From NCBI GenBank assembly GCA_913061095.1, contig CAJXVM010000014.1, positions 80,072 to 127,729 on the forward strand: a DNA stretch of 47,658 nucleotides. The letters are read 5' to 3'. A program made the translations under genes and the position numbers. Positions 5,234 to 32,044 of this stretch are shown here, one piece after another (position 1 is the first letter of the stretch; every line of letters begins with the position of its first letter). The stretch comes from an uncultured Ignavibacteria bacterium. Lineage in GTDB: Bacteria; Bacteroidota; Ignavibacteria; SZUA-365. The notes under the pieces are model-generated. The model saw nothing but the letters and a program-made list of their open reading frames with translations. It was not told the origin of the DNA and searched no databases.

Positions 5234-6169
5234 TTAGGAATGATCCCTGTCGGGATGAATGCGCTTGCTCGCGTCGAGGAGGATGCGCTTTTCTTCCTCG
5301 GTCAGGCTCGAATATCCCGAGACGCTGATCTTGTCGAGAATGTCGTCGATGCGCTTCTGGGACTCGTCGAATTCCGGATCGTCTGTTTTCGGCCGGTTTT
5401 TGCCGGATGTGAATTCGTAGAATTTTGCCTCGCGGGGGGGACTCTCCCATGTGGGCGTCCCGCCTGACACGGATTTCTTCTTTCCAACCGAGGAAAGCAT
5501 GCGGTCAATGGAACCGCGACGCTCGAGCAGCACCCAGACCGCGCCGACCACCGCGCCGCCGAGATGGGCGATATGCGCGATGCCGTCCATCGTGCCGGAT
5601 ATGCCGTTGAACACCTCGAGCAGGATGAAAAACGTGATGAGGTATTTCGCACGGATCGGCACGAAGAACCACAGGTAGATGTAGCGGTCCGGGAACATCA
5701 TGGCGAATGCCACGAGTACCGCGTACACGCCTCCCGATGCGCCGATGGTGGGACCCGGCGTCGAGAACATCGGGGCAATGAACAGATTCGCCAGTCCGGC
5801 GACGATCCCCGAGGCAAAGTAGAAGATCAGGAATTTCTTCGAACCCCAGGTGTTTTCCAGCTCCATGCCGAACATCCAGAGCATGAGCATGTTGAAGAAA
5901 ATGTGCATGAAGTTGCCATGCAGAAACATGTACGTGACGAGCTGCCACGGCATGAATTCCGGTCGTCCGATTGGCCACAGATAGAAGGATTTGGCGAACC
6001 AGTTGTATATCGGCTGTCCACCGAGCGTCAGGCCGCTCTGAAAGACCATCTGCAGGATGTACGCCCCCACTGTGATAAAGATGATGTTCTTAAGCACAGG
6101 AGGGAAGAAGCTGAAGCCTCCGAACTGGGGACGGTAACCGCCGCTGTTGTAAGATCGATATGCTGACAT
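5234..6169 (-). CDS. Rhomboid-family intramembrane serine protease with C-terminal extension
   Basis: A 311-residue inner-membrane rhomboid protease. It has six or so hydrophobic segments between about residues 25 and 220, a HGNFMHIFFNMLMLW segment typical of the family, the catalytic serine motif GASGG (Ser145) and the catalytic histidine in HIAHLGGA (His202). Rhomboids cleave transmembrane segments of client proteins; no client is evident here. Residues 225-311 form a soluble, charged tail containing ISVSGYSSLTEEEKRILLDA, a short helical domain often attached to rhomboids in Bacteroidota (DUF6576-like, from memory). It lies between pgk (69 bases upstream) and ispG. Family assignment is secure; the role of the tail is unknown. 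Confidence 0.93.
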   Translation of the reverse strand: MSAYRSYNSGGYRPQFGGFSFFPPVLKNIIFITVGAYILQMVFQSGLTLGGQPIYNWFAKSFYLWPIGRPEFMPWQLVTYMFLHGNFMHIFFNMLMLWMFGMELENTWGSKKFLIFYFASGIVAGLANLFIAPMFSTPGPTIGASGGVYAVLVAFAMMFPDRYIYLWFFVPIRAKYLITFFILLEVFNGISGTMDGIAHIAHLGGAVVGAVWVLLERRGSIDRMLSSVGKKKSVSGGTPTWESPPREAKFYEFTSGKNRPKTDDPEFDESQKRIDDILDKISVSGYSSLTEEEKRILLDASKRIHPDRDHS

Positions 6170-6238
6170 GAGTTTCTACTGTTATACACTCTAGAAAACA
6201 GAGGAGCACAGGTGAACGTTCCTCCCGCGGCACCCCTG

Positions 6239-7435
6239 CTATTTGTCGGTCAGAGCAGCGAGTCCGGGCAGCGTCTTACCCTCGAGCAGTTCGAGTGAGG
6301 CTCCGCCGCCGGTGGAAACATGAGAAACACTGTCCTGCAGTCCGATCTGGCTGATGGCCGCCGCGGAATCGCCGCCGCCGATCACCGTCACCGCGCCGTT
6401 TTTCGTGGCCTCCGCCAACGCCTCGGCGACGGCGACGGTACCTTTTGCAAAGTTCGGCATCTCGAAGACGCCCATCGGACCGTTCCATACGATGGTCTTC
6501 GCATCGGCGATGTGCTTTTTGAACAGGTCGATAGTTGCCGGACCAATATCGAGGCCCATCATGTCTGCGGGGATATCGCCCACGCGCACGGTGTGGAATT
6601 CCGTGTCATTGTCGAAGGATTGCCCCACGACGGTGTCGATGGGAAGCAGCAGCTGCTTGTGGCGCATTTCGGCCATCTGCATCAGCTGACGGGCCATGGC
6701 GATTTTGTCATCTTCCAGAAGCGAATTCCCGATTTCCATGCCCTGCGCTTTCAGGAAGGTGTACGTCATGCCGCCGCCGATCAGCAGCGTGTCGACTTTT
6801 TCGAGCAGATTTGCGATGACGTCGATTTTTCCTGAGATCTTGGCACCGCCGAGAATGGCGATATAGGGATGCTCGGGATGTTCGACGGCGCGACCGAGAT
6901 AGTCGATTTCCTTTTCCATCAGCAGTCCGGCGAGGCACGGTGACAGGTGATGCGTCACGCCTTCGGTGGATGCATGGGCGCGATGCGCAGTGCCGAACGC
7001 GTCGTTGACATAGATGTCGCCGAGTGCGGCGAGCTGCGCGGCGAAGTCTTCGTCATTGCCGGTTTCTCCGGCATGGAAGCGCAGGTTCTCGAGCAGCATC
7101 ACCTCGCCCGGAGCAAGCTCGCCGGCGAGCTTCCGGACCTCCTCGCCCACACAGTCGGGAGCGAACCGCACATCCATATCGAGCAGCTCGGACAGCTTTT
7201 CCGCAACGGGCTTCAGGCTCATCTCTTTTTTGAATTCTCCCCTGGGCCGACCGAGGTGGCTCATGAGAATGACGGCGGCGCCTTTCTCGAGCATCATGCG
7301 GATGGTCGGAAGGGCGGAGACGATACGCGTGTCGTCGGTGATCTCCTGCCGGTCGTTGAGTGGGACGTTGAAATCGACGCGCGTCAGTACGCGTTTCCCG
7401 GAAAGATCGGCGTCCTTGATGGTGCGTTTGTTCAT
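6239..7435 (-). CDS. pgk: Phosphoglycerate kinase
   Basis: Cytoplasmic glycolytic kinase that transfers phosphate from 1,3-bisphosphoglycerate to ADP. The 398 residues match the normal length. The N-terminus has the signature KRVLTRVDFNVPL, then SHLGRPRGE with the substrate-binding arginine and histidine, and GGAKISGKIDV. The C-terminal nucleotide domain has WNGPMGVFE and TVIGGGDSAAA. The ATG at 7435 follows an AGGAG site. It sits directly downstream of gapA, the preceding glycolytic enzyme, but a terminator separates them, so part of its transcription must come from readthrough or a promoter in the short gap. Confidence 0.98.
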   Translation of the reverse strand: MNKRTIKDADLSGKRVLTRVDFNVPLNDRQEITDDTRIVSALPTIRMMLEKGAAVILMSHLGRPRGEFKKEMSLKPVAEKLSELLDMDVRFAPDCVGEEVRKLAGELAPGEVMLLENLRFHAGETGNDEDFAAQLAALGDIYVNDAFGTAHRAHASTEGVTHHLSPCLAGLLMEKEIDYLGRAVEHPEHPYIAILGGAKISGKIDVIANLLEKVDTLLIGGGMTYTFLKAQGMEIGNSLLEDDKIAMARQLMQMAEMRHKQLLLPIDTVVGQSFDNDTEFHTVRVGDIPADMMGLDIGPATIDLFKKHIADAKTIVWNGPMGVFEMPNFAKGTVAVAEALAEATKNGAVTVIGGGDSAAAISQIGLQDSVSHVSTGGGASLELLEGKTLPGLAALTDK

Positions 7436-7492
7436 TGCTGTGCTCCTGTATAGTCAGCCGGATAAAAAAACCTACGAAAACAGTGCCGAAAC

Positions 7493-7521
7493 AAAAAGTG
7501 AGGCCGACAGCGCGGCCTCAC
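7493..7521 (-). terminator. Intrinsic terminator of gapA
   Basis: Perfect 9-bp stem (plus 7498-7506 GTGAGGCCG with 7513-7521 CGGCCTCAC) and a 6-base loop. On the minus strand it is followed by TTTTTG, starting 25 bases after the gapA stop. It lies between gapA and pgk and would limit readthrough. Confidence 0.9.
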
Positions 7522-7546
7522 TCACAGAACGGATCGCTGCCGTTGA

Positions 7547-8584
<1,038 letters not shown>

Positions 8585-8603
8585 TCAACATATTTCCCGG
8601 GTG

Positions 8604-8612
8604 GGAAACATA
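8604..8612 (-). promoter_or_regulatory. Putative promoter element of gapA
   Basis: On the minus strand this reads TATGTTTCC, 68 bases before the gapA ATG, and resembles the Bacteroidota -7 element TAnnTTTG. Similar TATGTT sequences stand before other operons in this window. No convincing upstream -33 box was found. Confidence 0.35.
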
Positions 8613-8635
8613 CAATCATAACGGAAAGGGGGAAA

Positions 8636-10054
8636 TCAGGGTTCCTGCTGCAATATCCGCTGCTGCATGAGCAGTTCTTCCGCCTTTTGGGCGCGAAGCA
8701 CGGCGTCGGCATTTTCTGTCTGTCCGAGTTCCCGGTAGGCGAAAACGAGCAGCGAGGTCAGCGTGTCGCGAATGCCGTCGCGCGCCCGTATATCCTGCAC
8801 CTGCAGCCAGGCATGCTGCTCGTTGAGCCGGCGCAAACGGTAGACGATCTTGCCGGGATGCGTGGAGTCTTTCATCGCCCGCGTGTAGACGCGCCGCAGA
8901 TAGGAGGCCACATCCGGGGCTCCGTTGCTTTCCCCGACGCGGCTCTCGACGCGCGCCAGGGTGTTGTGTATCGTGGCGGAATCGGCAACCATCTGCTTGA
9001 GCCGGATGTTGTTGCCGGGCAGCATGCGCAGCCGTACCGCGTCGGGACGATGGTCCGGGAATCCGCGCTGCTTGAGGCTGAAAACGAGACCCAGACAGAA
9101 ATCCCTGCTGAGATTCGTCGTCAGGAAATTCAGCGCGGCGGTGATGATCATGTCGCCGGTGGCACCGGTGAGCAGCGGAAACTTCTCGATCAGGTTCTGC
9201 CGCATGAACACCGCCTGATTGTGTGCGCGCTGAATATCGCCGCCCGGCAGGGTGCGCCGTGTGCGCAGGAACTGCAGTGTTTTCACCGGATCGCGGTAGC
9301 CGAGAATTTCCATGATTCCCATCGCCTGGCTGAAGCCGACTTCCACGTAATAGTTGACCGGACCGCGCTTGGCAACCTCCGCCACCTTATGCATGAGCCA
9401 GCGGTTGTCGGTCGTCTTCGCGTTTGCAATGATGTTGAATGTCGTGGTGTCGGGATAGCCGAGATCGACATAGGTGTCGCGGGGGATGGACATGATTTCG
9501 ACGACGGCGGAATCCGGATTGACCGTGACGAGATGCAGCGCATCGGCGCGGGCATCCCGGGCGGAAAGCCGGGAATCGATACCGATGATTATGACGTTGA
9601 TCAATCGTCCGCCGATCGGCGGCGTGCGGGAAATGTTGCGAAGCTGCTCATGCAGCACCGAGTCTTCAATCAGGGGGCGCATGGGGAGAAGCGACCGGCG
9701 CTCGGCGCTCAGCTTCTCGATATCCGAGCGAATCGTGTCTACGGTGTCGCGCTCCACGGCGGCATCACGCACGCGCTCGGCGGCCCGCTCGAGCCGTTCC
9801 TCCTCGATCCACAGGTATACCGCGTCGCTTGCCGTTTTCACGCCACGCAGGGCGGTATGCACCGCGTCTGGCGGACCGGGCAGACCGGGCACCATCGATG
9901 CGGCCATCCACCAGAACAGCACGACGACCACCGTCCAGAACAACACGCGGAAAAGCCGAAGGAGACAACTTCGCTTCCGGGGTTCTTCCATGCGGTCCGC
10001 ATTGCCGGGCTGTGTGCCGTCCTGCTTGGGAGGCGTGGCGGAATCACTTGACAT
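8636..10054 (-). CDS. LytR-CpsA-Psr (LCP) family membrane protein
   Basis: A 472-residue membrane-anchored protein. A short basic cytoplasmic N-terminus (about 1-35) precedes one transmembrane helix (VLFWTVVVVLFWWMAAS, about 38-58). Then comes a helical stretch of about 80 residues and an LCP domain (about 150-310) with INVIIIGIDSRLS, LHLVTVNPDSAVVEIMSIPRDTYVDL and the later FLRTRRTLPGGDIQRAHNQ, matching the polyprenyl-phosphate-binding arginines of the family. LCP proteins attach polyprenyl-linked glycopolymers to the cell wall in Gram-positives; in a diderm the acceptor is unclear. The C-terminus (about 350-472) is helical and TPR-like. Its ATG overlaps the end of the MetH gene by 11 bases, implying coupled translation although no functional link is known. 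Confidence 0.85.
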   Translation of the reverse strand: MSSDSATPPKQDGTQPGNADRMEEPRKRSCLLRLFRVLFWTVVVVLFWWMAASMVPGLPGPPDAVHTALRGVKTASDAVYLWIEEERLERAAERVRDAAVERDTVDTIRSDIEKLSAERRSLLPMRPLIEDSVLHEQLRNISRTPPIGGRLINVIIIGIDSRLSARDARADALHLVTVNPDSAVVEIMSIPRDTYVDLGYPDTTTFNIIANAKTTDNRWLMHKVAEVAKRGPVNYYVEVGFSQAMGIMEILGYRDPVKTLQFLRTRRTLPGGDIQRAHNQAVFMRQNLIEKFPLLTGATGDMIITAALNFLTTNLSRDFCLGLVFSLKQRGFPDHRPDAVRLRMLPGNNIRLKQMVADSATIHNTLARVESRVGESNGAPDVASYLRRVYTRAMKDSTHPGKIVYRLRRLNEQHAWLQVQDIRARDGIRDTLTSLLVFAYRELGQTENADAVLRAQKAEELLMQQRILQQEP

Positions 10055-11903
10055 TGAAGTATTTTGCTTCCGGGTGATGAACGATGATTGCGCTGGTGCT
10101 CTGTTCCGGCACCAGCTGATATTCTTCCGTCAGACTGATGCCTACGCGTTCGGGACGCAGCAGTTCGAAGAGCTGCACCTGGTCTTCAAGGTTCGGACAT
10201 GCCGGGTACCCGAAGGAATAGCGCGATCCCTGGTATCCCTGCGAGAACAGGCGGCGGATGTCTTCGGCGTCGCTGCCGGCGATGCCGAGTTCCATACGGA
10301 TCGACCGATGCCAGTATTCGGCAAGCGCCTCGGCACACTCGACGGTGAGGCCATGTGCGTACAGATAATCCTGATACCGATCTTCGGCAAATAGCGCGGC
10401 GGTATATTCCGAGGCCGTGCTGCCCATGGTTACGACATGAAAGGCACAGACATCCGGGGCGCCTTCGCCCGCGGCGCGAAAATAATCCGCTATGCAAAGA
10501 TAACGGTCGCCGCTCTGTCGCGGAAATGCAAAGCGTTGCCACTCCTCGAGTTCGTCGATCGTGTATGAGCGCTTCGGCCATGGCTCGTGCAGAACCTCGT
10601 CGGACAGCTCGCGCGGCCGATAGACGACCAGGTCGTTTCCGTCGGAATGGCAGGGGAAGTAGCCGTAGACCAGGCCCGGATGGAGGATACGCTCGCGCTT
10701 CATGCGCAGTTTCAATTCCTCTAGCCGCGGACGGACGACGGTCTCGAGTTCCTGCTCGTATTCCTCGGCATCGCGTTTGCCTCGGCGAAACTGCCACTGT
10801 CCGCGGATCAGGGCAACCTCGTTGATGTACTCATACACTTTTTCGATGGCGACGTCGCGCACGATTTTCGAACCGAAAAACGGCGCTTCGGGCACCGGAA
10901 CGTCGCGTGACACTTCCGACCGCACCGTATAGACGGGTCGGCCGCTGCGGCTGGGAGCGACGTGGCGACTGCCCCCCGCCTGCCGTTCCTGCACGCTGCG
11001 CAGATGCATCGCCGTTTCCATTGCCGCACCGCCGGGAGCGGTATCCGCAGAGGACGGCTTCTCCCTGTCTTCAGCTGCGGCAATTTTGGCTTCCATGCCG
11101 GAGAGATCCTCGTCGGACGGCTGCTCCGCGCTCGTGCCGTGGTCGCGTCCGTCGGGGAAGTGCTTCCCCGCCGCGATTCCGTCCATGAAACGGAGTCCGT
11201 CAAAGGCATCCTTCGCATACTGCAGGGTGCCGCCATAGAGCGGACGAAGGTCGTTGTCCACGAAGCGCCGGTTGAGCGCGGCGCCTCCGAGAATGACCGG
11301 GATGCGAATCCCCCGTTCCCGCATGAGTTCGAGATTCTCTTTCATGATCAGCGTCGATTTCACGAGCAGGCCGCTCATGCCCAGCGCATCGGCGTGATGC
11401 TCGCGGATCGCCGCGAGCATGGTTTCCACCGGTACCTTGATGCCGAGGTTGATCACGCGATAGCCGTTGTTCGAGAGAATGATGTCGACCAGGTTTTTGC
11501 CGATGTCGTGTACGTCGCCTTTCACCGTCGCCAGCACAATCGTGCCCCGTGTGCTGCCGTCGATTTTTTCCATATACGGCTCGAGATGGGCGACAGCGGT
11601 CTTCATTGATTCGGCGGACTGCAGCACGAAGGGCAGCTGCATCTGTCCGGATCCGAACAGATCGCCGACCGTCTTCATGCCGTCGAGCAGGATGTGATTG
11701 ATGATGTGCAGCGCATCATGCGTCTTCAGCGCCTCGTCGAGATCGGCATCGAGTCCGATGCGGTCGCCGTCGACGATCCGCCGCTTCAGGCGCTCCTCGA
11801 TCGGTGCGTCATCGGCGAGCGCCCGGGCCTGCGGGGCGGCGGACGTTCCGCTGTAGTGCTCCATGAATGCTGTGAGCGGATCGTATACGCATCTGCTGGT
11901 CAT
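10044..11903 (-). CDS. Stand-alone C-terminal half of cobalamin-dependent methionine synthase (cap, B12 and activation domains)
   Basis: A 619-residue protein equal to the C-terminal half of MetH. It starts with VYDPLTAFMEHY, which in full-length MetH lies at the end of the folate-binding barrel. The methylcobalamin cap (about 25-115, FGSGQMQLPFVLQSAESMKT) and B12-binding Rossmann domain follow, with the lower axial ligand His132 in GDVHDIGKN. A variable linker (about 255-315) leads to the AdoMet-dependent reactivation domain, ending PEQSTSAIIVHHPEAKYF. The homocysteine and methyltetrahydrofolate domains are absent, and upstream is the divergent Rrf2 gene, so the other half must be encoded elsewhere or the protein serves another methyltransferase. 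The ATG is followed directly by family sequence and no frameshifted remnant lies upstream. Domain calls are strong; catalytic partnership is inferred. Confidence 0.88.
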   Translation of the reverse strand: MTSRCVYDPLTAFMEHYSGTSAAPQARALADDAPIEERLKRRIVDGDRIGLDADLDEALKTHDALHIINHILLDGMKTVGDLFGSGQMQLPFVLQSAESMKTAVAHLEPYMEKIDGSTRGTIVLATVKGDVHDIGKNLVDIILSNNGYRVINLGIKVPVETMLAAIREHHADALGMSGLLVKSTLIMKENLELMRERGIRIPVILGGAALNRRFVDNDLRPLYGGTLQYAKDAFDGLRFMDGIAAGKHFPDGRDHGTSAEQPSDEDLSGMEAKIAAAEDREKPSSADTAPGGAAMETAMHLRSVQERQAGGSRHVAPSRSGRPVYTVRSEVSRDVPVPEAPFFGSKIVRDVAIEKVYEYINEVALIRGQWQFRRGKRDAEEYEQELETVVRPRLEELKLRMKRERILHPGLVYGYFPCHSDGNDLVVYRPRELSDEVLHEPWPKRSYTIDELEEWQRFAFPRQSGDRYLCIADYFRAAGEGAPDVCAFHVVTMGSTASEYTAALFAEDRYQDYLYAHGLTVECAEALAEYWHRSIRMELGIAGSDAEDIRRLFSQGYQGSRYSFGYPACPNLEDQVQLFELLRPERVGISLTEEYQLVPEQSTSAIIVHHPEAKYFNVK

Positions 11904-12031
11904 TTTGTACCTGAAGATTTTTGCATCTGAAACTTTAATACTACGAGATGATTTTGTATTTTTTCATCGTTCTTCAGACGAAGGAGACAGCCCCTCGTTG
12001 CACTTTCCGGCAAATTTTTTTTGCGCGGCAC

Positions 12032-12060
12032 TTGACAAAGCCGGGAAAAGCGCTTACTTT
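12032..12060 (+). promoter_or_regulatory. Putative sigma-70-type promoter of the Rrf2 regulator gene
   Basis: TTGACA (12032-12037), a 17-base spacer and TACTTT (12055-12060) lie 61 bases before the GTG start. The inverted repeat at 12044-12063 covers the spacer and -10, which suits repression. It lies in the divergent gap with the MetH-half gene. Confidence 0.55.
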
Positions 12061-12063
12061 TCC
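12044..12063. promoter_or_regulatory. Inverted repeat over the rrf2 promoter, possible autoregulatory operator
   Basis: GGAAAAG, six bases, CTTTTCC: perfect 7-bp arms centred on the -10 region of the putative promoter. Rrf2 dimers bind dyad sites of about this size, and many repress their own gene. The link to this protein is inferred from position only. Confidence 0.45.
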
Positions 12064-12120
12064 TACAAAAAGGTAATCATATCTTAATTTATTTATAACC
12101 ACAGCCAGGAGCGGTTTGAC

Positions 12121-12675
12121 GTGTTATACTCAAAGACAGCCCAGTATTCCATCCAGTCCATGCTGTTCATCGCAGCGAACAATTCCGACCAGAATATTCT
12201 CGTCCGCGATGTCGCCAAGGAACTGGGTCTTCCTTCCTCCTTTCTGAGCAAGATTCTGCAGACGCTCAGCCGGTACGGTTTTCTCAACTCGGTCAAGGGC
12301 CCGAAGGGTGGCTTTTCACTTTCCGAGAAGGGCGCCGGATCCACCATCGCCGAACTCGTCGCTGTCGTTGACGGTCCGATGAACTTCGACATGTGTCTTG
12401 CGGGCTTCAGCCCCTGCAACGAGGAGAACGCCTGTCCGTTCCATCAGGAGTGGAAACGCATTCGCGAGGAAATCCGCGAAGTGGTCAACAGCAAGAGCAT
12501 TTATGAGCTGGCTCAGGAAATGCCCATTCGTTATCGGACGCTCCTGGCAGGTGACGCCCCGCAGTCTTCGGCGAAGAAAGCCGTGAAAAAGGCCGCCACC
12601 AAGAAAACGGCGAAAAAGAAGCCCGCCAGAAAAGCCGCAGCAAAGAAAGCCGCTGCAAAGAAGAAAAAGAAATAA
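12121..12675 (+). CDS. Rrf2-family Fe-S-type regulator with histone-H1-like Lys/Ala tail
   Basis: A 184-residue transcriptional regulator. Residues 1-135 form an Rrf2 winged-helix protein: LYSKTAQYSIQSMLFIA at the start, recognition helix PSSFLSKILQTLSRYGFL and the wing VKGPKGGFSLS. Cys92, Cys99 and Cys105 lie where IscR has its three [2Fe-2S] ligands (92, 98, 104), so a redox-sensing cluster is likely. Residues 149-184 are almost only Lys, Ala, Thr and Pro (AKKAVKKAATKKTAKKK and so on), like a histone H1 tail; this is not part of the Rrf2 fold and should bind DNA nonspecifically. The GTG start has AGGAG at 12107-12111 and the first residues match other Rrf2 proteins. It is a single-gene unit with promoter, inverted repeat and terminator. 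Target genes are not shown; the divergent MetH-half gene is one candidate. Confidence 0.9.
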   Translation: MLYSKTAQYSIQSMLFIAANNSDQNILVRDVAKELGLPSSFLSKILQTLSRYGFLNSVKGPKGGFSLSEKGAGSTIAELVAVVDGPMNFDMCLAGFSPCNEENACPFHQEWKRIREEIREVVNSKSIYELAQEMPIRYRTLLAGDAPQSSAKKAVKKAATKKTAKKKPARKAAAKKAAAKKKKK

Positions 12676-12701
12676 CGCTTCGCGTTCTCACGCAGCAGAT
12701 G

Positions 12702-12736
12702 AAATCCGGGACGGTTCGCCGCTCCCGGATTTTTTT
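12702..12736 (+). terminator. Intrinsic terminator of the Rrf2 gene
   Basis: Perfect 10-bp stem (12702-12711 AAATCCGGGA with 12723-12732 TCCCGGATTT), an inner CGG/CCG extension closing a TTCG loop, and a run of seven T. It lies 27 bases after the stop codon. Confidence 0.92.
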
Positions 12737-12855
12737 CTTCCCGAATGCGAAGATCAATCCGGCAAAGAGTGCGGGATCAGGGAAGCGCTTTCTATTGATT
12801 CTGCCAATGTGGCGATCTATTTTACTAATCTATAAATAATTCGTTCAGTTTTCAC

Positions 12856-12868
12856 TGTCAAATTGACA
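12856..12868. promoter_or_regulatory. Palindrome just upstream of miaB
   Basis: TGTCAAATTGACA is a perfect dyad around one central base, ending 8 bases before the miaB ATG. No ribosome binding site is evident between them. It may be an operator, or a chance palindrome in AT-rich promoter sequence. Confidence 0.3.
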
Positions 12869-12876
12869 TACATCGC

Positions 12877-14202
12877 ATGCATCGTTCGATTTACATAGAG
12901 ACCTACGGCTGCCAGATGAACTTCGCTGATACGGAGATCGTCAATGGCATCCTTCGCGAGCAGGGGTATGAAATCGCCTCGGACGTCGAGAAGGCGGACG
13001 CGGTATTCCTCAACACCTGCGCGATTCGTGACAACGCCGAGCAGCGCATATACGGCCGGCTTTCCAACCTCGAGCATCTCAAGAAGCGCAACCCGCATCT
13101 GGTGTTCGGGATCCTGGGCTGCATGGCCGAGCGCCTCCGTTCCGATCTTCTCGAAAAAAACAGCGCGGTCGATATCGTGTGCGGTCCCGACGAGTATCGC
13201 CGCCTTCCCGCGCTCATCGACGACGCGTTCGCCGGCGAAAAGGGCATCCGCACGCAGCTGTCGCGCGTGGAGACCTATGATGACATCGTTCCGCTTCGCA
13301 CCGACGGCATCAGTGCCTGGGTGGCGGTGATGCGCGGCTGCGACAAGTTCTGCACGTTCTGCGTCGTTCCGTTTACCCGCGGACGCGAGCGCAGCCGTCC
13401 GCGCGCCGGCGTCCTGCGCGAGGTCGAGCAGCTCCTCGAGGGCGGCTTCCGCGAGGTGACGCTGCTCGGGCAGAACGTCAATTCCTACCGTGACGAGGAA
13501 CACGATTTCGCGGACCTGCTCGTGGCGGTGGCGGCGCTCGATCCGACACTGCGGGTGCGCTTCACGACGTCGCACCCCCAGGACATGTCTGACAGGCTGA
13601 TCTCAGCGATCGCCGAGCACGGGAATATCTGCAGCTACATTCATCTTCCCTTCCAGTCCGGCTCGAACCGCATCCTCGAGCTGATGAACCGGACCTACAC
13701 CCGTGAGCACTATCTCGAACTCGTGCGGAAGATCCGCGCCGCCATTCCGGGCGTCGCACTGTCGACCGACGTGATCGCCGGCTTCCCGACCGAAACGGAG
13801 GAAGACCACCGGGCCACGCTCTCACTCATGGAGGAGGTTCGCTATGACGGCGCCTTCATGTTCAAATATTCGCCGCGCGAGCGCACACGCGCCTGGAAAA
13901 TGGGTGACGACGTTCCGGAGGAGGTCAAGGGCCGGCGTCTCGAGGAAATCATCGACCTGCAGCGGCGCATTTCGTACGACGTGAACGCGCAGGTTATCGG
14001 AACGCGGCAGAGCATCCTGCTGGAGGGACCGAGCAAGCGTTCGGAGGAGGAGTGGATGGGAAGAACCGACACGAACAAGACTGTCATCGTGCCGCGCGGC
14101 GATTTCGCCGTGGGCGACACGATCGACGTTGAGATCACCAGTGCGACGTCGGCCACGCTGTTCGGCCGTCTCGCCGGCGCGCGTGCGATGGAAGCCGCCT
14201 GA
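12877..14202 (+). CDS. miaB: tRNA-2-methylthio-N6-dimethylallyladenosine synthase MiaB
   Basis: Radical SAM methylthiotransferase that adds the 2-methylthio group to i6A37 of tRNAs. The 441 residues match the family. The N-terminal domain (YIETYGCQMNFADTE, LNTCAIRDNAEQ, GILGCMAERL) carries the three cysteines of the auxiliary cluster. The radical SAM core has CDKFCTFC with Cys155, Cys159 and Cys162, and the C-terminal TRAM domain spans about 375-435. It begins a plus-strand run continuing with the SPOR, metallo-beta-lactamase, sigma-54 activator, lptE and GT2 genes. The ATG at 12877 has no visible ribosome binding site; an AT-rich stretch at about 12816-12841 may hold the promoter. Confidence 0.97.
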   Translation: MHRSIYIETYGCQMNFADTEIVNGILREQGYEIASDVEKADAVFLNTCAIRDNAEQRIYGRLSNLEHLKKRNPHLVFGILGCMAERLRSDLLEKNSAVDIVCGPDEYRRLPALIDDAFAGEKGIRTQLSRVETYDDIVPLRTDGISAWVAVMRGCDKFCTFCVVPFTRGRERSRPRAGVLREVEQLLEGGFREVTLLGQNVNSYRDEEHDFADLLVAVAALDPTLRVRFTTSHPQDMSDRLISAIAEHGNICSYIHLPFQSGSNRILELMNRTYTREHYLELVRKIRAAIPGVALSTDVIAGFPTETEEDHRATLSLMEEVRYDGAFMFKYSPRERTRAWKMGDDVPEEVKGRRLEEIIDLQRRISYDVNAQVIGTRQSILLEGPSKRSEEEWMGRTDTNKTVIVPRGDFAVGDTIDVEITSATSATLFGRLAGARAMEAA

Positions 14203-30638: not shown

Positions 30639-32044
30639 GACTCCTCCAGCACCGTTCCGTCATCGATAACACGCTGTTCCCCGGCGGGGATCTGCAGATG
30701 CACAGACCCGCGGCAGACGACGTTCCTGCCGAACAGCGCATCCCCCTCAATGTGCAGTTCGGCGCAGTGCAGCAGCGACGGCGCGCCGTGAGGGAAGCGC
30801 TCTTCGAGCTGCGACACGAATTTGTAGAAATCGCGGTCGAGCACGATGTCGATCGTGGACAGCGTGCGTGCGGGATTCTGCACGATGCGGAAATCATCGG
30901 TGAGGACGTAGGCGTCGGACCAGATGCCGAGCAGATCGTCGGTGGTCTTCACCGGGGCGAATCGCCGGCGCGGTACGCGCAGCGCTGCGGCGTTCTCGAA
31001 CAGTGAAATGGCTGCCCCCATGGCGGTTTCCAGCTGGTAGACACCGGGAGATTCCGGGTCACGCGGATTCAGCGTTTTCCGGTTGCGGATCAGCGGCAGC
31101 GGCAGGATGCCGTCATAACGGTCGAGTGTCTCCTTGAGCGCCTTCAGGTCGATCCAGAGATTGTTCGTGTTGAAAAAACGGTACCGCGTGATATCCTGGA
31201 ATTCCTCAGTTTCGTCTTCCGGACACTGCGCCCGCTCCCGCAGCGTCAGGCGGCCATCCTTCAGCAGCGCCAGGTGTCCGCCCTTGCGGTCGGCCGGCGT
31301 GCGGTCGGCGACTTCCATCATGAACGGAAACTCCTGTGAAGCGAAATATCCGAGGATTTCCGGATCGAGCACCGCGCCGAGGTTGTCGGCATTGCTGACA
31401 AAGGCGTAGCGGATGTCGCGCGCAAGAAGCTGATCGAGCAGGCCCGACGTAACCAGTGCAGTGTAAAGGTCGCCGTGCCCCGGCGGACACCACTCCAGCT
31501 CGGCATCCTCCGCGCCGTTGGCAGGATCCAGACCGTCGACAAGCACTTTCGGGATGCGGTGCTGCAGGAAATCCAGCGGCAGGTCACCCGTGAGTTCCGG
31601 CCAGGCCTCGAGCGCCTCGAGGCTGTCGTCGCGCGTGTTGAAACTGTTCATCAGAAGCAGCGGCACGGCTGTGCCGTACTGCGTGCGCAGATGCAGGGTC
31701 TGCTGTGCGATGATGTCAATGAAGCGCAGTCCGTCCTTGACCGGAATCAGGCTCTTCGCCTGCTCCAGTCCCATGCTCGTGCCAAGTCCCCCGTTGAGCT
31801 TGATCACGACGGCCTGCCGCAGTGCATCCGTCCCGGTGCTTGCATGGCCAGACAGCTTCTCCGCGTCCGGAACATCCTCGATTGCGTCGATCTGAGAGCG
31901 CGCGATCGTGCCCTCCGAGCCACTGATCAGCTGCAGGTAATTGCGTTTGAACATGTTGATCACCAGCGGATGCGCCCCCGCCTCGCGCATTTTCGCTTCG
32001 AACGGACGAAACGCGTTTAGCATGTCTCCCGGGTATTCTGCCAT
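30635..32044 (-). CDS. UTP--glucose-1-phosphate uridylyltransferase, eukaryotic UGP type
   Basis: A 469-residue UDPGP-family pyrophosphorylase making UDP-glucose from UTP and glucose-1-phosphate. The nucleotide-binding loop is KLNGGLGTSMGLEQAKSLIPV; further family segments include LLMNSFNTRDDS, PPGHGDLY and YAFVSNADNLGAVLD (quoted in parts FVSNADNLGA). The C-terminus has the left-handed beta-helix pattern with repeated hydrophobic strands. This is the eukaryotic-like enzyme, unrelated in detail to bacterial GalU. One variation is visible: the P of the usual PKS motif is Ala (QAKS). UDP-glucose would serve glucan or glycolipid synthesis, for instance by the GT2 enzyme. It opens the three-gene set. 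Confidence 0.9.
   Translation of the reverse strand: MAEYPGDMLNAFRPFEAKMREAGAHPLVINMFKRNYLQLISGSEGTIARSQIDAIEDVPDAEKLSGHASTGTDALRQAVVIKLNGGLGTSMGLEQAKSLIPVKDGLRFIDIIAQQTLHLRTQYGTAVPLLLMNSFNTRDDSLEALEAWPELTGDLPLDFLQHRIPKVLVDGLDPANGAEDAELEWCPPGHGDLYTALVTSGLLDQLLARDIRYAFVSNADNLGAVLDPEILGYFASQEFPFMMEVADRTPADRKGGHLALLKDGRLTLRERAQCPEDETEEFQDITRYRFFNTNNLWIDLKALKETLDRYDGILPLPLIRNRKTLNPRDPESPGVYQLETAMGAAISLFENAAALRVPRRRFAPVKTTDDLLGIWSDAYVLTDDFRIVQNPARTLSTIDIVLDRDFYKFVSQLEERFPHGAPSLLHCAELHIEGDALFGRNVVCRGSVHLQIPAGEQRVIDDGTVLEES

Follow-up and report, generated by a model that had tools for sequence, protein, structure and literature searches.

The window, a stretch of 47,658 nucleotides from an uncultured Ignavibacteria bacterium, carries a gene for an Rrf2-family regulator (rrf2) at 12121..12675 on the plus strand. 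The gene encodes 184 residues, starts with GTG, and has an AGGAG Shine-Dalgarno sequence ahead of it. Its divergent neighbor (10044..11903, minus strand) is the C-terminal half of metH, the cobalamin-dependent methionine synthase, with the B12-binding and activation domains. Downstream lies miaB (12877..14202, plus strand; UPF0004, radical SAM, and TRAM domains), and the same two genes flank the rrf2 locus in three other genomes (G296, G303, and G300). Methionine synthase appears to be split in this organism: the B12/activation half is in the window, and the homocysteine/folate half (S-methyl_trans plus Pterin_bind) is on another contig (L198 598-2487). A further gene (L199) joins S-methyl_trans to MTHFR. 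Immediately upstream of the divergent metH half, positions 11911-11936 hold a family-conserved element, ATCTGAAACTTT with AGATTTTT.

An intrinsic terminator, TCCGGGACGGTTCGCCGCTCCCGGATTTTTTT, follows rrf2 at 12705..12736 on the plus strand; 6 relatives have an equivalent hairpin and T run in the corresponding position, and the region has a folding energy of −22.5 kcal/mol (z −2.9). Because the two genes are separated by this terminator and by a conserved promoter region of miaB's own, rrf2 is probably monocistronic and miaB is probably not on its transcript; cotranscription was rejected as the default for the same reason. In the miaB leader (12795-12868), two TGNCAAWTTGNCA-like elements occur, one of them within a probable −35/−10 spacer, and positions 12856-12868 form a palindrome, TGTCAAATTGACA; relatives have similar elements.

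Folded core and candidate operator of the regulator

Residues 1 to 143 (12121..12549, plus strand) form the Rrf2 core, in which Pfam, AlphaFold, and Foldseek together delineate a winged helix-turn-helix, a dimerization helix, and a cluster loop. Membership in the Rrf2 family is well supported: the Pfam model PF02082 matches residues 4 to 132 with 91 bits against a cut-off of 30, and TIGR00738 scores 98.4 against a cut-off of 73.3. The protein scores well below the cut-off of each equivalog model (IscR, Xanthomonas-SUF, CymR, RirA, and NsrR), with 65.1 bits against 207.55 for the NCBIfam IscR model. The AlphaFold prediction, made with a 62-row alignment, gave pLDDT values mostly between 79 and 95 for residues 1 to 140, and the best Foldseek matches of the predicted core were NsrR, CymR, RsrR, and IscR.

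The original prediction placed cysteines at the IscR-type positions 92, 99, and 105, and translation bears this out. Three cysteines precede a long helix, and His108, which had gone unmentioned, completes the set as the fourth ligand in a C92-X6-C99-X5-C105-X2-H108 loop (12394..12444, plus strand). All four residues are invariant in a 62-sequence alignment of homologues. Like IscR, the protein thus has the Rrf2 fold, a Cys3-His set, and a palindromic site over its own promoter. The two are about 20% identical in a structure-based alignment, and they differ in ligand spacing (CX6CX5CX2H versus CX5CX5CX2H in IscR; the E. coli ligands are C92/C98/C104/H107 [PMC5411485]), in residue 43 (Ser instead of the IscR specificity residue Glu43), and in gene context, since rrf2 lies between the metH half and miaB and not beside isc or suf genes. 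NsrR, RsrR, CymR, and RirA belong to the same family; Streptomyces coelicolor NsrR uses Asp8 as a ligand where our protein has Gln8, and CymR carries no cluster. We conclude that rrf2 probably encodes an IscR-like, Fe-S-binding regulator. A role as the SUF regulator is unlikely, because the suf operon carries its own Rrf2. That probable operon lies elsewhere in the same genome (L163, about 6080-12866, contig C17), and its Rrf2 paralogue lacks both the Cys motif and a tail.

A family-conserved promoter, TTGACA (12032-12037) and TACTTT (12055-12060) with a 17-nt spacer, precedes rrf2 on the plus strand (12032..12060). It was assigned by reading the alignment; a simple promoter scan did not report it. 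A 23-bp imperfect palindrome, TTACTTTT-N7-AAAGGTAA, covers the −10 hexamer at 12054..12076, and its conservation and symmetry mark it as a candidate autoregulatory operator. The element is conserved across 10 genomes while the flanking sequence drifts, and its arms are complementary at 7/8 positions in 9 of the 10. It occurs once in the window, with 0.01 occurrences expected. In the window genome, G296 to G299, and G301, matches with at most one mismatch were confined to the rrf2 promoter. A regulon search with the operator pattern returned rrf2's own promoter as the sole recurrent site; the other matches with up to two mismatches shared no place across these genomes and were not commoner than those of a reversed control pattern. 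Given a unique, conserved palindrome over the rrf2 promoter, autoregulation through 12054-12076 is probable, although the palindrome could instead be a plain promoter element. We infer cluster occupancy and autoregulation from these features: the folded dimer would recognize the palindromic operator as a repressor of its own promoter, and, by what is known of the family, cluster occupancy would alter this specific binding by the core.

Composition, distribution, and evolution of the tail

From about residue 145 on, the chain consists almost exclusively of Lys, Ala, Pro, and Thr. Residues 149 to 184 (12565..12672, plus strand; SAKKAVKKAATKKTAKKKPARKAAAKKAAAKKKKK) make up the nearly pure K/A/P/T tail that had been predicted, and its position outside the Rrf2 fold is confirmed by the end of the Pfam match and by pLDDT values that drop to 45 to 64 past residue ~143. 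The net charge of residues 145 to 184 is about +17. Lysine accounts for 17 of 35 tail residues against a background frequency of 3.7% (binomial probability, about 1e-15), and, among 98 open reading frames in about 100 kb of the same genome, only one other reaches at least 10 Lys per 36 residues. Long, rich in K/A/P, poor in acidic residues, and disordered, the tail has the histone-H1-like character originally ascribed to it and resembles H1/HC2-type tails. Its match to the HC2 profile (PF07382) is weak, with 20.5 bits (E = 0.0012 in a search of its own genome) and thus below the curated cut-off of 40 bits; the longest orthologous tail (L205) scores 43.6 bits.

To see how widely the tail occurs, we used a family set (f1) of 12 genomes: besides the window genome, it has 4 from the same genus and 7 from other genera of the family. 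Its named members include Bacteroidetes bacterium SZUA-365 and Ignavibacteria bacterium BM516. A K/A-rich tail is present on the Rrf2 orthologue in 12/12 genomes, at 60 to 90% identity over the match. In the sister family of the same order (f53), neither of two orthologues is tailed; their cores are 58% identical and end in ..LLTPDIIKK. The tail is also absent from about 60 further Cys3-His homologues in Bacteroidota, Nitrospinota, Tectomicrobia, and Aquificota and from all three Rrf2 paralogues in the window genome. In a maximum-likelihood tree, the tailed proteins form one side of a single branch (support, 95/94; 96% of bootstrap trees), which fits a single origin of the tail. All 12 genomes keep the tail in frame, which rules out a frameshift or an assembly artifact as its source; absence from close relatives together with signs of a frameshift had been named as grounds for refutation, and neither was found.

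The 11 orthologous tails measured consist of 76 to 100% K/R/A/P/T/S and carry net charges of +10 to +26. They range from about 30 to 72 residues, and the order of residues drifts while composition and charge stay. Most of them mix their synonymous codons, with AAA and AAG for Lys and all four codons for Ala. Constancy of composition and charge under drifting length and order, together with mixed codons, is as expected under selection on composition and charge. In one species, the tail (L042) contains near-identical 15-nt copies that indicate a recent repeat expansion; low-complexity tails can be expanded by slippage in this way, so part of the length is probably neutral. We infer that tail evolution combines selection on composition with slippage-driven changes in length.

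The Rrf2 tail is not alone in this lineage. A census by HC2 profile searches gave 30 matches in the 12 family genomes versus 7 in 25 genomes from other orders of the class, counts that are approximate owing to fragmented assemblies and some overlapping matches. In the window genome, a DksA/TraR zinc-finger protein has an N-terminal H1/HC2-like segment of ~190 residues (L104 985-2145, contig C1, minus strand), and basic N termini of 35 to 320 residues are found on its DksA-like relatives throughout the class; DksA-like proteins are factors of the RNA-polymerase type. An ArsC-family protein likewise starts with an H1-like segment (L105 1198-1917; contig C14, about 30805-31527, minus strand). The same searches found a K/A segment at the C terminus of a TY-Chap/YbjN-like protein and on two unknown proteins, C-terminal on one and N-terminal on the other. 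The tail on Rrf2 therefore exemplifies a habit of the lineage. In four genomes, the ArsC/Spx-like domain joined to an H1-like N terminus has a single conserved Cys (e.g., IKQCQSTRKA). In place of this fusion, G299 and G301 have an H1-like protein on its own; its leader (..SLQGGxTMAK..) is very similar, and the locus may be the same. These observations cover loci L105, L154, L155, L156, L202, and L210. This joining of a redox-type domain to an H1-like protein may merit separate study.

The variable length, the repeats in L042, and the abundance of K/A segments in the lineage would also suit a nearly neutral by-product, in which slippage and a lineage tolerance of K/A-rich termini maintain a repeat-prone 3′ extension. 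We consider this unlikely: the tail has never been lost in the 12 genomes, down to 60% identity, it is always in frame and strongly cationic, and most tails have mixed synonymous codons.

Proposed role of the tail

H1-like, low-complexity K/A/P tails with variable repeat number, as in our protein, are known from AlgP and PhaF of Pseudomonas, chlamydial Hc2, and mycobacterial HupB and TopA. There the tail belongs to structural, granule, or topology proteins, whereas the carrier here is a putative Fe-S sensor. IscR has no K/A tail, and none comparable is reported on NsrR, RsrR, CymR, or RirA in the literature searched. A published parallel is PgFur/Har of Porphyromonas gingivalis, likewise a Bacteroidota metalloregulator with a K/A tail (KKAADKAAPKKKK), for which non-specific DNA binding and an in vivo role of the tail are described (PMC6613475, PMC4222909). 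This lysine-rich tail, which reportedly occurs solely in Fur homologues of Bacteroidetes, complicates DNA-binding assays through unspecific charge interactions (PMC4222909). With 13 tail residues removed, PgFur no longer copurifies with DNA and the phenotype resembles that of a knockout, yet the protein still binds the promoter in vitro (PMC6613475). PgFur/Har differs in having the Fur fold, a tail of 13 to 20 residues, and zinc and heme in place of an Fe-S cluster. The Fur protein of the window genome has no tail. The claim that the combination was undescribed therefore needs qualifying: an H1-like tail on a metalloregulator has a very similar precedent with a published truncation, and no Rrf2 protein with a lysine-rich tail was found in the literature searched, a weak sign of novelty.

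Likeness of composition suggests that the Rrf2 tail binds DNA. The best explanation of the data, and one that we consider fairly probable, is an IscR-like sensor in which the cluster governs binding to the operator and a disordered cationic tail adds a constitutive, sequence-independent affinity for DNA. As a disordered polycation of the same type as those of histone H1, HC2, and AlgP, the tail would supply this affinity electrostatically, holding the regulator on the nucleoid and increasing both its association rate and its residence time, whatever the state of the cluster.

K/A-type tails can alternatively bind RNA, polyphosphate, or acidic proteins. On such a reading, the tail would bind another polyanion (polyphosphate, RNA, or ribosomes) or target the protein to polyphosphate granules, with DNA binding incidental. 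AlgP, a well-studied bacterial protein with an H1-like tail, is found with polyphosphate granules, whose spacing depends on that tail, and KPAA peptides and the tail of AlgP also bind DNA (PMC9239181). H1-like modules moreover occur on the TY-Chap/YbjN-like and ArsC-family proteins, which are not known DNA binders. Yet here the tail sits on a DNA-binding regulator, and it is the tail of PgFur that brings about DNA copurification (PMC6613475); we accordingly give little credence to a polyanion other than DNA as the main target.

The original prediction went further and coupled cluster state to chromatin binding, so that core and tail would jointly let the cluster switch broad association with the chromosome. 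Sensor and tail do share one chain, and a wide role might need unspecific binding in genomes with a single high-quality palindrome. Nevertheless, nothing in the sequence ties the tail to the cluster, and no element that could couple the core to the tail is visible. Being disordered and cationic, the tail should work alike in the apo and holo forms, so cluster-coupled chromatin binding is not expected from the anatomy of the protein. In addition, Rrf2 regulators are usually less abundant than nucleoid proteins. We therefore regard cluster gating as very unlikely. Just as improbable is its boldest form, in which the sensor of this family would be a cluster-responsive nucleoid protein with essentially one operator, most of its molecules held unspecifically on DNA by the tail and adjusting broad chromatin and transcription to Fe-S or redox status, as one of a set of H1-tailed regulators spread through the lineage.

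The Rrf2 tail and PgFur together suggest that Bacteroidota-type bacteria put H1-like tails on metal or redox regulators more than once. Should the tail determine how long the regulator searches or stays on the nucleoid, the family would provide a clean natural experiment on the tuning of a sensor by unspecific DNA affinity, since the same order contains orthologues that lack the tail and whose cores are 58% identical.
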